A stretch of DNA of 36,714 bases from positions 1-36,714 of the IMG/VR virus record IMGVR_UViG_3300047560_000541. One strand, given 5' to 3'. Both the position numbers and the translations under genes were made by a program. Below the pieces are notes generated by a model, which was not told where the DNA came from, ran no database searches, and saw nothing but the letters and a program-made list of their open reading frames with translations. This DNA is from a virus. Below, piece after piece: positions 4,187 through 25,792 of the stretch. The number at the start of each line of letters is the position of its first letter. Position 1 is the stretch's first letter.

Positions 4187-5082
4187 GCGCGCGCCCCCTC
4201 GAACTTCTTCGCATACCAAACGGGGACGCTGATTGGCTGGATCTTCGACGAGTAACCCGGCCACTCGCCGGACGTGTGCCCACGATGTAGCCGCTCAAGG
4301 TTCGCCCGATACTCGAAGCGTCCGAGCTCGCGAGCCTCGTCGTCGAGACGATAGACCGCGACCGCGTATGGCGGTTTCTTCTCCACCACGAGGAACACGA
4401 ACTCGCGCGGGCGTTCAATCTTCGCGCCGCTTTGTCCGACCGCGTGCCCCGTGCCGTCGAGATAGAACGCGTCTTGGACGTGGTAGCGCCACTTGGCGAT
4501 AGATCGGTCGAACTCTTCGGGACTTGCGTCCTCGGTCGTCTTGACGTCGACGATGATCCCGTCCTCGCGCCAGAAGTCAGGACGACAGCGCAACAGGAGC
4601 CCGGTTGCGGGGTCGTTCCAATAGGCGGATGCTTCAGCGACGCCGGGGACGCTAGTCAAAAGAGCGAACGCGGCGGGATGCTTGTAGACCGTGGCGACCA
4701 TTGCTTTAAGCGTGTCGAGGTCCTCTTGGCTGATCTGCTCCTTGCCAGCGTTTTTCGCGTCGAAGGAGTCCCAAAAATAGATAGCCTCGATTGTCTCCGC
4801 GCTCGGTTTCTTTGCGTTGCGTTGCCCGCTCGTTGGTCGCTTTGGCGCGTCGGTCGGCGTGACGACGTAGCGATCAGCAAAACACGCGGGCTCCAGAAGC
4901 GCCGTGTGGAACGCCGATCCGATGAACTGCGCGGCGGTTTGTTCGCGGTTGTCGTTCGCCGCGTCCTTGTTGGTTTTGTAATGCAACAGCGACCGATTAA
5001 CGCGGTCGAGATCAGACTTAGAGTCGCCGGGTCCCCCGTGGTACTCCTCATTTGCTAGGTCGTAGTAGATGCCAGCTTGCAT
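4183..5082 (-). CDS. PDDEXK exonuclease, RecE-like (DUF3799 type), 299 aa
   Basis: The start is ATG 5080-5082 (MQAGIYYDLANEEYH) with GAGGT 4 nt upstream; the open frame extends further up but that part is the control region. Family hallmarks are GSAFHTALLEP (H59), RCRPDFW (D169), IIVDVKTT (D179, K181) and YHVQDAFYLDG (Q203). Together these form a lambda-exonuclease/RecE-type PDDEXK core with the D-DxK triad and the downstream Q/Y helix. It is the first gene of the leftward early operon and probably resects dsDNA ends to give ssDNA for the SSB and RecA-like ATPase. Confidence 0.85.
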   Translation of the reverse strand: MQAGIYYDLANEEYHGGPGDSKSDLDRVNRSLLHYKTNKDAANDNREQTAAQFIGSAFHTALLEPACFADRYVVTPTDAPKRPTSGQRNAKKPSAETIEAIYFWDSFDAKNAGKEQISQEDLDTLKAMVATVYKHPAAFALLTSVPGVAEASAYWNDPATGLLLRCRPDFWREDGIIVDVKTTEDASPEEFDRSIAKWRYHVQDAFYLDGTGHAVGQSGAKIERPREFVFLVVEKKPPYAVAVYRLDDEARELGRFEYRANLERLHRGHTSGEWPGYSSKIQPISVPVWYAKKFEGARA

Positions 5083-5220
5083 AGTTACCTCGTTATCCGA
5101 GTGATTGTTTGTGATTGTTGTGCGTCTTGCGTGACGCGGCGTGAAGTATACACGCTCTGCAACCGTGTGCGTCACTTCGAGACAATGAAACGAGAAAAAT
5201 GCGTTAGTCAACCGACTCGG

Positions 5221-5226
5221 TATAAT
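5221..5226 (+). promoter_or_regulatory. TATAAT -10 box for helicase gene
   Basis: A consensus TATAAT lies 44 bp upstream of the helicase GTG. No convincing -35 is found at 16-18 bp, so the promoter may need an activator or be weak. Confidence 0.4.
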
Positions 5227-5258
5227 TCATGCCCGCGTAATCAATGCATCATGAATTA
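5223..5258. promoter_or_regulatory. 9-bp inverted repeat over the helicase -10 region
   Basis: TAATTCATG (5223-5231) and CATGAATTA (5250-5258) are perfect 9-bp inverted arms separated by 18 bp. The left arm overlaps the TATAAT box and the right arm abuts the helicase ribosome binding site. This placement suits an operator. Confidence 0.5.
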
Positions 5259-5270
5259 GGGTGAACGAAC

Positions 5271-6680: not shown

Positions 6681-7231
6681 GCGTGGTGGAGCGCGCTCAT
6701 CATGATGTATTTCGCGCGATCGGTCGGGGGTTGCCCGACGTGCGGGAACATCCAGAAGGGCGGGAACATGACGAGCCGCCCTGCCTTCGGTTTGACTGAT
6801 TGCCCGAGCATCGGGAACGAGGTCTCGCCGTCGTTGTCGTTGAGGTAGAGGATAAACACGAGGTAGCGGATCGCGGACCCCTTGTCCGCCGCGTCGATGT
6901 GGATCTTGAACTGGTCGCCCGTGCCGGGTTCGTATTTCTTGATCCGCACGTTCTCGAAGTGATCGGGGGAGACGAAACGATCAAAGCCCCGGAGCTTGAA
7001 GTAATCGCGGATGTGGGGCAACAGCACGCCGACGAACTCCTTCGCCAGAGTGCCGAGGTCGGTCGCGTTGCAGTCGAGTTGCCGGAACCGATACCCGGGC
7101 GTGTCGTGATGTTGCGTGAGCTCCGCCCGATCCTCGAACGCGCGGATGATCTGCGCGCACTCGTCGGGCGTGAGCACGCCGTCTCGAACGCTGATCAGGT
7201 CGGTTAGGTTTAGGGAGCCCCCGGCGGCCAT
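6677..7231 (-). CDS. 2-oxoglutarate/Fe(II)-dependent dioxygenase, 184 aa
   Basis: The double-stranded beta-helix signature of prolyl-4-hydroxylase-like enzymes is visible. H111 and D113 (FKIHIDA) and the distal H164 (MFPHVGQPP) would bind iron, and K174 (DRAKY) would bind 2-oxoglutarate. GETSFP and KPKAGRLVMFPP are the usual surrounding strands. Such enzymes hydroxylate a protein, nucleic acid or small molecule using O2 and 2-oxoglutarate; the substrate here is unknown. GAGGA lies 9 nt upstream of the ATG. It is the last gene of a unit starting at the integrase, and its start lies within the end of the 41-aa gene. Confidence 0.85.
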   Translation of the reverse strand: MAAGGSLNLTDLISVRDGVLTPDECAQIIRAFEDRAELTQHHDTPGYRFRQLDCNATDLGTLAKEFVGVLLPHIRDYFKLRGFDRFVSPDHFENVRIKKYEPGTGDQFKIHIDAADKGSAIRYLVFILYLNDNDGETSFPMLGQSVKPKAGRLVMFPPFWMFPHVGQPPTDRAKYIMMSALHHA

Positions 7232-7547: not shown

Positions 7548-8807
7548 TTATACGCCCGGATTGGCGTCCGTTTGCACTATTTGCGTCAAATAATGCTCCC
7601 ACACTTTCATTGCTTCGCGCATCTTCGGGAGATAGTCGGCGCGGTCGTAGTGTTTCGACCCGGTATCCGTTCGCGCGTGTTGCTGGATCATGTCGCGCAT
7701 CTCTTTCGAGATCCCGAGCTCGCCGGCGCGCGACTTCCACGTCCGCCTTATGTCGCGCGTCTGGAACTTCGCCGCCTTCACGTCCTCTTGCGCAAGCCAT
7801 CGGTCGATCGACTGCATGATGGAACGGTGATCCATGCGCCCGTCGACCGCGCCCGGGAACAGGGGCCCGGATCCGCGCACGCGCTTGAGCAAGGCGAGCG
7901 CCCCCTCGACTTGCTTCGGGAGCGGGATCGCGTGCGGGCGTTTCCTGCCCTTCGTCTTTTCGGCGGGCATGTTCCACGTCATGGTTCCGAGGTCGATCTC
8001 GGAGCCGTCGATCCGCAGGACCTCTTGGACGCGTTGCCCGGTCGCGATCAGCATCCGGATAACGGTCGCGGTCTCCAGAGTGAAGCCGTTGAGGCCGGGG
8101 GTCGCCGCGCTCCAGAGCGTGCGGAGCTCGTCGGACGACAGGTTCCGGTCCCGTTGCCCGACCGCGCTGTGGTCCCTCGGGATCGCCGCCGCCGGGTTGA
8201 TCTTGATCCCCCAGTCTTGCCGGGTCTCGACGGTGTAGTCGTGCGCCGCCTTGAGCGCCCAGTTGAAGGCCGAGGAGATATAGGACCGGGACTTGTCCGC
8301 CTGCCCCCGGGATCCGCGCCGGTAGAACCCGGACACGAAGTCCACCACGTCGCCGGGTTCAATGTCCGCGCATAAACGGTGACGCCCCAGAGCGTCGGCG
8401 GCGTTGTTCTCCGCCTTGAGGAGCGCCCGCTCGACCTCTCCGGCGGAGACCCGCCCCTTCGCCTTCATGCTCTCGACGTAAGCCTCGAACATGCGCCCGA
8501 CCGTCGGCTTGCCTTCGGCGACCGTCTGGACCCGGGGGTTCTTCCCCGCCCGGACGACCGGGGCGACCTCGGCCACGAACAGCGCCCGGGCGGCGGACAG
8601 GCTCATGTCCGGGTATTTCCCGAGCGGCTTGGTCGCCCGCTTCCCTCCTTGCTTCCACCACGCGACCCACGTCGCGGTTGTTCCGCTCGTGCCCGGGCGG
8701 ATCCGGAGGCGGAGGCTCCCGGTCCCTCGCCCGTGGGCCCCATCGTTGAGCGTCGTGTCTTTGGTTGCGGCGCGGATCGCCCGCTTGATCTCGGTATCGG
8801 TCAGCAT
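7548..8807 (-). CDS. int: Tyrosine integrase, 419 aa
   Basis: This is a P4-like phage integrase with an N-terminal arm-binding domain (SLRLRIRPG, ATWVAWWKQGGKRATKPLGKYPDMSLSAAR split over residues 31-75), a core-binding domain (about 100-200) and a catalytic domain. Catalytic residues are R259 (ATGQR), Lys near 284-286, R354 (RDIRRT), H377 (QQHAR) and nucleophile Y387 (KHYDR). The usual His of HxxR is Arg351, as in a known subgroup of phage integrases with a DIRRT motif. The ATG lies 14 bp from the arm-type repeats of attP, so Int binding may also repress its own promoter. Confidence 0.93.
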   Translation of the reverse strand: MLTDTEIKRAIRAATKDTTLNDGAHGRGTGSLRLRIRPGTSGTTATWVAWWKQGGKRATKPLGKYPDMSLSAARALFVAEVAPVVRAGKNPRVQTVAEGKPTVGRMFEAYVESMKAKGRVSAGEVERALLKAENNAADALGRHRLCADIEPGDVVDFVSGFYRRGSRGQADKSRSYISSAFNWALKAAHDYTVETRQDWGIKINPAAAIPRDHSAVGQRDRNLSSDELRTLWSAATPGLNGFTLETATVIRMLIATGQRVQEVLRIDGSEIDLGTMTWNMPAEKTKGRKRPHAIPLPKQVEGALALLKRVRGSGPLFPGAVDGRMDHRSIMQSIDRWLAQEDVKAAKFQTRDIRRTWKSRAGELGISKEMRDMIQQHARTDTGSKHYDRADYLPKMREAMKVWEHYLTQIVQTDANPGV

Positions 8808-8820
8808 CTTCGGCCCCGGG

Positions 8821-8844
8821 TTTTGGGTGCACTTTTGGGTGCAC
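8821..8844 (+). repeat. attP arm-type sites, left pair
   Basis: TTTTGGGTGCAC occurs twice in perfect tandem (8821-8832 and 8833-8844), each containing the element TGGGTGCAC. The same element, with the same 12-bp period and orientation, recurs on the other side of the tRNA-derived core at 9061-9081. Paired tandem sites flanking a core are the usual arrangement of integrase arm-binding sites. Confidence 0.75.
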
Positions 8845-8848
8845 CATC

Positions 8849-8860
8849 GGTGATATCACC
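8849..8860. promoter_or_regulatory. 12-bp perfect palindrome upstream of int
   Basis: GGTGATATCACC is a perfect 12-bp palindrome immediately beyond the left arm sites in the int leader. It could be an operator or a site for an accessory recombination factor. Confidence 0.35.
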
Positions 8861-8875
8861 CGGGACGCGCCGAAT

Positions 8876-8898
8876 CACGCGCAATCATGGAGCGCGTG
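8876..8898. repeat. 7-bp inverted repeat between arm sites and core
   Basis: CACGCGC (8876-8882) and GCGCGTG (8892-8898) are perfect inverted arms with a 9-nt spacer. No T-run follows on either strand, so a terminator is unlikely; a protein-binding site in the attP complex or int leader is more plausible. Confidence 0.4.
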
Positions 8899-8962
8899 TA
8901 TTTTCTTGGGGTTAAGTGAAGAGGCGTGAACCCGAGTGACCGGGGATTATACAGATTTTCCC

Positions 8963-9009
8963 GACTACGAATCTGGGGGTCAGAGGTTCGAATCCTTTCG
9001 GGCGCGCCA
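8963..9009 (+). other. attP: attP core: 3' part of tRNA-Arg(ACG)
   Basis: The sequence starts at the anticodon arm (loop CTACGAA at 8965-8971, anticodon ACG at 8967-8969) and runs through the variable loop, the T-arm (loop TTCGAAT) and the acceptor 3' strand to CCA at 9007-9009. The D-arm and 5' acceptor strand are absent, so it is not a full tRNA gene. The left part of the anticodon stem carries a mismatch, suggesting that identity with the host gene begins near 8963. Integration here would rebuild a complete host tRNA-Arg. Confidence 0.8.
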
Positions 9010-9060
9010 CTTAAAAATCAAACACTTCCGCGAAGATTGAGAGAGACCCAAAAACGGGCT

Positions 9061-9081
9061 TGGGTGCACTTCTGGGTGCAC
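9061..9081 (+). repeat. attP arm-type sites, right pair
   Basis: TGGGTGCAC at 9061-9069 and again at 9073-9081 repeats the left pair with the same 12-bp period and orientation, 237 bp away. An inverted half site (ACCCAA at 9046-9051) lies just to its left. Confidence 0.75.
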
Positions 9082-9104
9082 TAAGGGAAACGCATCACGC
9101 GGGG

Positions 9105-10211
9105 TCATTGCGATTGGCTCCCGTCGTCGTTTGCTTCATCCGCGTGGTCGTCCTCGCCTTCGATCTTGTCCGTCGCGGTCGCGCCGTTCGCGTAGGCGTC
9201 GGCATTGGTCCGCTCGGCTTCGAGGGTGCACACGTAGCCGTTCGATCCGATCTCGTGTTCGACAGACGTGATATTCCACGAGCCGTCAATCCCGGACCAG
9301 AAACCGGAGACCGCGAGCGACGCCTCGGCGACGATCTCGGGGCGACCCGGGAGCGTGAGCGAGAGGGTCTCCTTCTGCCGCCCTCGTCGGGCGAGCTCAG
9401 ACTTCGCCGCCGCTTCCGCCGCGTCCTTGTCCGTGTAGACCCCCTTGAGGCTCGTCTCGGGGTCCCCAGAGCCGACCGTGACGGCGTGGCGCTTGGCCTT
9501 CTTGTGTTCGTGCCAGTAGGCCCGGACGGACCCGGACTCCTCGCGCTTCGCCCGGGTGAACCTGTAGCTGGTGATCTTGTCCTTCGGGGAGAGCGAGAGC
9601 GAGAGCGAGTTCCCCGACATGGTTTTGTTCTCGGACTTCTTGACCGCCATCAGGCGACCGTCCGCGACCTTGATCACGGCGTCGTAGCGCCGCCCGACCC
9701 GGATCAGGAAGTGAAGGTCCGACTCGTCGATCTGGTGCGTCGCCGGGACGTCGATCGACGAAAGCGACTGCGAGACCGACCCGGTGAGCCCGTTCTCCTT
9801 CGCGATGGTTTGGACCATCTTCGAGAATGTGCCCTTCGCCCACTTCTTGTTCTTCTGTGTCTGGAGTTGCTTCCCGTCGCCGTTCTTCTTGTCGAAGGTC
9901 GCGGAGCGGGCCCGGACCGTGATCGTCTCGGGCCAGCCCTCGCACGTCACTTCGTCGACGATGAACTTCCCCATCTTCACGACGCGCGCGTCGTAGCCGA
10001 GCGAGAGCTCCAGTTGCGCGCCGGTGTCAGGCATTTGCACGGGCGACCCGTCGACGCCGTTCGAGATCGTGAATTCCAGCGAATCGGAGTCGAAGCCCGC
10101 CGAGTCGGAATAACGGAGCGAGATCAGCCGGCGGTTGATCTTGTCCGTGATATCCGAGCCGTTCGCCTTGATGACGAACTCGGGGACGATCCCGACCGCG
10201 CTTAGTCCCAT
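9105..10211 (-). CDS. D: P2 gpD-like tail/baseplate protein, 368 aa
   Basis: It matches late control protein D of P2-type tails: N-terminal VIKANGSDITDKINRRLISLRYSDSAGFDSDSLEFTI in two parts, central VRARSATFDKK and THQIDESDLHFLIRVGRRYDAV, and C-terminal FWSGIDGSWNITSVEHEIG. GpD forms the hub between tube and spike. A hydrophilic tail rich in Asp, Ala and Asn closes the protein. The ATG overlaps the end of gene X by 10 nt. It is the last gene of the late block, about 100 bp before attP. Confidence 0.9.
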   Translation of the reverse strand: MGLSAVGIVPEFVIKANGSDITDKINRRLISLRYSDSAGFDSDSLEFTISNGVDGSPVQMPDTGAQLELSLGYDARVVKMGKFIVDEVTCEGWPETITVRARSATFDKKNGDGKQLQTQKNKKWAKGTFSKMVQTIAKENGLTGSVSQSLSSIDVPATHQIDESDLHFLIRVGRRYDAVIKVADGRLMAVKKSENKTMSGNSLSLSLSPKDKITSYRFTRAKREESGSVRAYWHEHKKAKRHAVTVGSGDPETSLKGVYTDKDAAEAAAKSELARRGRQKETLSLTLPGRPEIVAEASLAVSGFWSGIDGSWNITSVEHEIGSNGYVCTLEAERTNADAYANGATATDKIEGEDDHADEANDDGSQSQ

Positions 10212-25229: not shown

Positions 25230-25792
25230 TAGCTCATCCCCACGTTGTAGGTGAGGCGCGCGCGTAGGTCGCGAATGAAGTGGTTCATAAAAATCTCTTC
25301 GACCTCATCGAAAATCACGTCCTCGATATAGACGTCCATTTTGTCCTTGATCGGCGCGCTTGCCTCGTCGAGCGGGAGACGTGCGCGACCTTCGCGGAAA
25401 TAGATCGAGCGCCCGCGCCCGTTGAGTCCCGAGTGCACGAAGCCCTTCGGGAAGTTGAAACTGCCGGCCTTGCCGGACCACGACGCGCCGTTCGGCTTGT
25501 TGTCCTTGGCTCGTCCCTTGAGCATCGAAAGCGGGAGCGGGTTCAAACCATACCAGAGCTCCGCGCCCTCGACGTTCGACCGCTTGATCCGGATCGTCTT
25601 TAAGCGCTTGCGGAGGTAGGCGAGCTTCTTCACGCCGATCTCGGACTTGAAGCCGGCCTCGGACTTTTTCCGAAGGGTCGCCGCCGTGCGTTTCGCCGCG
25701 CGAGATATCGCGAACTTGACCTGCCTTTCGGTCGGTCCGAGGGCCTCGATAATCTCCCGGATCCCCTTCGCGTCGAAGTCGAGATACAGCAT
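25229..25792 (-). CDS. Minor tail/neck protein, gpZ-like, 187 aa
   Basis: MLYLDFDAKGIREIIEALGPTERQV leads into a basic helical region (ISRAAKRTAATLRKKSEAGFKSEIGVKK, in parts), and RARLPLDEASAPIKDKM occurs near the C-terminus. This layout is that of the lambda minor tail protein Z / HK97 gp10-type connector family, which sits at the head-tail junction. It follows the FII-like attachment gene as in lambda. Confidence 0.78.
   Translation of the reverse strand: MLYLDFDAKGIREIIEALGPTERQVKFAISRAAKRTAATLRKKSEAGFKSEIGVKKLAYLRKRLKTIRIKRSNVEGAELWYGLNPLPLSMLKGRAKDNKPNGASWSGKAGSFNFPKGFVHSGLNGRGRSIYFREGRARLPLDEASAPIKDKMDVYIEDVIFDEVEEIFMNHFIRDLRARLTYNVGMS

Follow-up and report, generated by a model that had tools for sequence, protein, structure and literature searches.

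A probable phage attachment site with tandem arm-site pairs around a tRNA-Arg core, and the tRNA strategies of its integrase relatives

Attachment sites of the lambda type are read by bivalent tyrosine integrases, and those of P2 and L5 have paired arm sites. The attB of lambda is not a tRNA, according to the sections of PMC10865867 consulted, which describe for mycobacteriophage Fionnbharth a tyrosine integrase, paired putative arm sites and a tRNA attB. In the IntS/TorI system of KplE1, att overlaps the region upstream of int (excerpts of PMC2951348). Among the phages in GenBank, KA2-1, Persinger, PPpW-3, PT1, Bas97, Mano, Mica and Dolphis have an integrase homologous to the one treated here, a tRNA core and, in most of them, two tandem pairs of repeats; the pairs of KA2-1 are degenerate and did not score above shuffles.

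The DNA analysed (hereafter the window, meaning the whole stretch) is a virus record of 36,714 bases, which carries P2-type tail genes along with portal, terminase and major head genes and in which a terminal repeat was looked for and none was found. Its int gene (7548-8807, reverse strand) encodes a 419-aa tyrosine integrase (Int) with N-terminal arm-binding and C-terminal catalytic domains. Int scores above the cut-off for Pfam PF00589 and PF13356, matches the phrog_1 integrase, and has R259, K286, R351, R354, H377 and Y387 (which we take to be its catalytic residues) invariant in an alignment of 18 relatives. Int is full-length, the site at 8821-9081 adjoins its gene, and we regard it as very probable that the window is DNA of a temperate phage of P2-tail type with its attP at 8821-9081 and a lambda-like Int.

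As in lambda-type attP sites, arms flank a core, an IHF-like site and an accessory array are present, and int adjoins. Unlike lambda, the window has four near-identical tandem copies that point the same way with a 12-bp period, and its core includes a tRNA anticodon loop. The locus shares with Fionnbharth the tyrosine integrase, the paired putative arms and the tRNA target, and with KplE1 the overlap with the region upstream of int. The modules of the related phages differ from that of the window in their arm motifs and in the tRNA concerned; Persinger, PPpW-3, PT1, Bas97 and Mano combine a full tRNA with a core of the anticodon stem-loop, unlike the window. The site is ordinary in kind and its layout already known, yet it is unusually readable.

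Layout of the locus adjoining int

The int-side (proximal) arm pair, two copies of TTTTGGGTGCAC, occupies 8821-8844 (+ strand). The distal pair (9061-9081, +) consists of TGGGTGCAC at 9061-9069 and 9073-9081, and in its 12-bp period and direction it matches the int-side pair; both pairs are kept in relatives. The tandem repeat and its recurrence on the far side had been described in the initial annotation, and their coordinates, period and direction were reproduced. That annotation also placed the left pair 14 bp from the int start codon; with the ATG at 8805-8807, the counted gap to the repeat start at 8821 is 13 bp. There are exactly four exact matches of TGGGTGCAC on both strands of the 36.7-kb window, all inside 8824-9081, and the four arm copies are identical over these 9 bp, while 100 dinucleotide shuffles of the window averaged 0.09 matches and never had more than 1.

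Between the pairs lies the attP core (8963-9009, +), a 47-bp 3' segment of tRNA-Arg(ACG) that runs from the anticodon loop (8965-8971) to CCA. Its earlier assignment as such a segment agrees with its identity to the corresponding 3' part of alphaproteobacterial tRNA-Arg(acg) genes called by ARAGORN. This 47-mer is present in 4 of 190 genomes from the class of Microvirga lupini; it is absent from the 274 genomes from the class of an Oxalobacteraceae MAG and, even at three mismatches, from 31 genomes of a genus that we take to be Pseudomonas solely from a Pseudomonas primer. In E. coli, the best-listed places are about 76-79% identical to it and lie within tRNA-Arg genes. Because of this distribution across the genomes scanned, the host of the window phage is probably an alphaproteobacterium. 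The identical 47-mer also occurs in Klebsiella phage KA2-1 and in the Pseudomonas phages Dolphis, Jeremy and Touem01 (cores at L017, L027, L029 and PV565041.1:42199-42245); this alphaproteobacterial-type core was not found in the gammaproteobacterial genomes searched, and its presence in these phages would point to a cassette acquired from elsewhere or to hosts beyond the isolation host.

The initial annotation listed neither the TCAY repeats, which lie with an exact 10-bp period between the core and the int-side arms, nor an IHF-like site. A TCAY triple with this period (8916-8939, reverse strand) is the sole triple in the window, where 0.02 are expected. A second TCAY pair, TCACGCGCAATCAT, is found at 8875-8888 (+), and an outer pair, TCACGCGGGGTCAT, at 9095-9108 (+), where it overlaps the end of the gpD gene; more pairs occur in the window at 7106, at 25305 and in 5101-5264, beside the divergent exonuclease/helicase start region. 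Across 58 homologous loci (defined below), 70 TCAY pairs are spaced by 10 against 0.9 expected and 31 by 20 against 0.8 expected, and triples are present in 18 of 22 related records, at 25 places versus 3 in a reversed control. The triple at 8916-8939 is probably a site for an excision or regulatory protein. Apl of phage 186 and Cox of P2 are precedents for a protein that works at att as well as at the early promoter, and by analogy it is a fair guess that one TCAY-binding protein serves both in the window phage. In Persinger, 5 of 10 TCAY pairs fall between genes overall, attP included (P 0.0013); a genome-wide TCAY operator was considered for this phage and rejected, as the between-gene enrichment fails outside attP (1/6, P 0.45). 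In the window proteins searched (part of this search covered 20 chosen proteins rather than every frame), no gene for a repressor or an excisionase could be recognised; the TCAY array is present in attP.

The IHF-like site, AATCAAACACTTC at 9016-9028 (+), matches WATCARNNNNTTR at 12 of 13 positions, and its counterpart in L011 is perfect. Judged by consensus match alone, the 58 loci hold 18 perfect IHF-consensus sites against 1.0 expected and, at 12/13 or better, 98 sites in 52 loci against 18.5 expected. These sites cluster at two fixed places between the arms, of which 9016-9028 is one. A TATAAT hexamer facing int (8946-8951, reverse strand), kept in the two nearest relatives, is a possible -10 element with no recognised -35, and a scan of 8780-9130 found no sigma-70-type promoter. 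The palindromes that had been noted between the left pair and the core (GGTGATATCACC at 8849-8860 and CACGCGC...GCGCGTG at 8876-8898) do exist, but they are not palindromic in both nearest relatives, and because of this lack of conservation they were ruled out as functional sites.

Homologous attachment regions and natural integrants

Relatives of Int were found in 190 phage records, 104 viral-contig stretches and 5 genome contigs, and the loci surveyed comprised 80 kept of the 104 viral relatives, 16 of the 190 phage records and the 5 genome hits. Exclusion of six loci with less than 300 bp upstream left 96, and removal of 14 near-duplicates left 82 for scoring. The score looked, within 600 bp upstream of int, for a 9-mer present as two tandem pairs with a period of 10-13 bp and 140-420 bp between the pairs, and each locus was compared with 20 shuffles of its own sequence. 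This survey returned two tandem pairs that beat every own shuffle in 62 of the 82 distinct loci. The window reached the maximum score (54/54), and the 20 relatives that do not show the pairs are mostly more distant ones. In a set of 58 loci, delimited by a score cut of our choice (at least 44), the arm periods are 12/12 in 44 loci and 11/11 in 10, and the arm motifs are lineage-specific (GTGCACCC, CCGTACCC, GGGCACCC, TGCGCCCG and others). Upstream of int in L012 there are three int-side arm copies, where relatives otherwise have two.

Arm-motif similarity follows identity in Int residues 1-95 when the rest of the protein is controlled (partial correlation 0.373, 0/999 permutations, 48 Ints); for the rest of Int, with residues 1-95 controlled, the value is -0.005. 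Sharing of the core anticodon loop, by contrast, follows the rest of Int (partial 0.451, 0/999 permutations, 47 Ints) and only weakly residues 1-95 (0.141). Loci in which the match to Int begins at about residues 62-66, and those with an unreadable loop, are not part of the 48- and 47-Int sets. Such a split is the pattern expected from a lambda-like bivalent integrase, and the covariation supports the idea that the N-terminal domain would hold the arms. Dozens of homologues with matching lineage-specific arms can in this way reveal which part of Int reads which DNA.

Relatives of the window phage are found integrated in two species of Microvirga. In M. lupini, the exact core 47-mer occurs twice, 94,165 bp apart, in an element with a homologous int: the first copy makes up the 3' part of an intact tRNA-Arg(ACG), with a distal arm pair after it, and the second adjoins int and the proximal pair, after which host DNA begins. 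The 47-mer of this relative is hence identical to the host attB and duplicated at both prophage ends. Upstream of the tRNA, the host flank shares 69.7% identity over 482 bp with the flank of an uninterrupted tRNA-Arg(ACG) in M. alba; on the other flank, the match to M. alba ends at the core plus about 12 bases. The integrated locus scores 39/54 upstream of int, not above its own shuffles, as expected because it is integrated. In M. alba, a relative whose arms are GTGCACCC lies on a contig of 40,528 bp (C7), each end of which overlaps by exactly 77 bp another contig (C23) that contains an empty tRNA-Arg(TCT) site. Because of these overlaps, the integrated and the empty site coexist in the assembly, which suggests active integration or excision. 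The common core of the two contigs is 14 bp; C7 carries a complete phage tRNA-Arg(TCT), and the host tRNA is broken at the junction.

The homologous attPs, the integrants of relatives and the covariation of arm motifs with the Int N-terminus all agree with the earlier reading of the site as an attP with tandem arms on both sides of a tRNA-Arg core. Neither the window phage itself nor any relative sharing more than 60% Int identity with it was found integrated. In G005, the tRNA-Lys 47-mer stands at both ends of C73:77548-110641 (L125, L126), about 33 kb apart, with a related Int at one of them; this stretch was not accepted as an integrant, since the integrase-like frame at its far end is a different one and a matching arm pair was not seen at that end.

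A proposed mechanism and its alternatives

The anatomy of the site, its conservation, the covariation and the natural integrants of relatives are observations; that proteins bind these elements, that crossover falls in the anticodon loop, that the TCAY array has a role, that Int represses itself and that the window phage itself integrates are inferences from the sequence. The N-terminal domain of Int would hold the two tandem arm-site pairs, and its core-binding and catalytic domains would work within the 47-bp tRNA-Arg(ACG) segment, on the anticodon stem-loop, in a complex shaped by IHF and probably by a protein bound to the TCAY array. Integration into the tRNA-Arg(ACG) gene would rebuild the tRNA from a host 5' part and a phage 3' part, and would split the arm pairs between the two ends of the prophage.

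The tandem pairs might instead be mainly operators, bound by Int or by a repressor, that control int and act as recombination sites only secondarily, a reading that we consider quite improbable. It draws on the position of the int-side pair 13 bp before the int ATG, which makes autorepression of Int through this pair plausible, and on a TTGAC box no more than 40 bp upstream of the int-side pair in 14 of the 58 relatives. A parallel is offered by IntS of KplE1, whose autoregulation was shown (in the excerpts of PMC2951348), whereas in the window it is the spacing that points to it. The distal pair, however, lies beyond the tRNA core, at an arm-to-arm spacing of 223-276 bp in 55 of the 58 loci, and in M. 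lupini and M. alba the pairs sit at opposite ends of the prophage and therefore behave as arm sites should. Operator and arm-site roles can be true simultaneously.

There is likewise little probability that the attP has decayed, with int-attP left as a relic in a phage that has become obligately lytic. Such a state has been printed for PPpW-3 and Arya, whose integrases were called pseudogenes with other lysogeny genes not reported (PMC5754474). Prophages of the window's Int family do look rare, because scans of genome contigs gave no relatives with a single-sequence Int query and five with an alignment query, and the int-attP region of Bas97 was not seen among 5,426 E. coli genomes. Against decay stand a full-length Int that retains the invariant residues, four arm copies identical over 9 bp, the occurrence of integrated relatives, and the covariation of arms and Int, implying that selection maintains their use. 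A reading as chance repeats next to a tRNA remnant has the shortness of each 9-mer as the sole point in its favour. It is refuted by the conservation of the layout in relatives, and it also has to face four copies against 0.09 expected and a search of viral contigs for exact copies of the window's pair, in which seven of the nine stretches recovered encode a relative of Int.

Two tRNA strategies in one integrase family

The core of 47 of the 58 attPs is the 3' half of a tRNA, without a further tRNA gene (L108 is a doubtful member, as its anticodon loop was not found), ten have the anticodon stem-loop only together with a complete tRNA of the same anticodon, and one (L087) has neither a 3' half nor a replacement tRNA. 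The replacement tRNAs are eight Arg-TCT outside the arms and two Lys-TTT inside the arms (L018-L022, L024, L058, L059, L062 and L066), to which the M. alba element (L127/L128) is added. Full tRNA-Lys genes called by ARAGORN in L055 and L081 were set aside, being by eye a 3' half with a chance 5' part. In PPpW-3 (L024, 1501-2745), the int printed as a pseudogene in PMC5754474 is open over its full annotated length and adjoins an attP that has both arm pairs.

In a tree built from 60 Ints, the 11 rows of the replacement class, M. alba included, require two changes (two to three in bootstraps) and are nested within the 3'-half class under midpoint rooting. A change from a tRNA-regenerating core to a broken tRNA with replacement, at least twice, is thus likely; its direction is no more than likely, given the midpoint root and the meeting of two long branches. 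The pattern suggests that the machinery of these relatives at times disrupts the host tRNA gene and supplies a phage-borne spare.

tRNA-dependent lysogeny has been demonstrated in mycobacteriophages, and in the Discussion of PMC10865867, as excerpted, its evolutionary relation to canonical systems is called unclear and its prevalence outside Actinobacteriophages open, save for a Lactobacillus prophage; the examined passages of this literature yielded no treatment of the window's phage family. Both sequence features of this lifestyle, a short core unable to rebuild the tRNA and a phage tRNA of matching isotype, are found in the ten relatives and in the M. alba element, which match the Fionnbharth system of that paper by sequence. 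The window itself falls outside, since its 47-bp core reaches the CCA and would rebuild the tRNA, and a complete tRNA was not found in its 36,714 bases.

We think it rather probable, though with appreciable doubt, that one proteobacterial Int family spans both ways of sparing the tRNA. The 3' half looks ancestral, and at least two lineages (Arg-TCT and Lys-TTT) would have independently shrunk the core to an anticodon stem-loop accompanied by a whole tRNA; this would be tRNA-dependent lysogeny outside Actinobacteria, seen in M. alba, with arm and core specificities that evolved as distinct modules, each read by its own part of Int. The coexistence of the canonical and the tRNA-replacement strategies makes the family more interesting than the site itself, and with Persinger, PPpW-3, PT1, Bas97 and Mano in culture it would make both the relation and the prevalence testable. 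As a minor observation, a tandem pair of TGGGTGCAC also occurs at L003:4903, with a tRNA-Arg(tct) at 4524-4600, about 4 kb from a related int.
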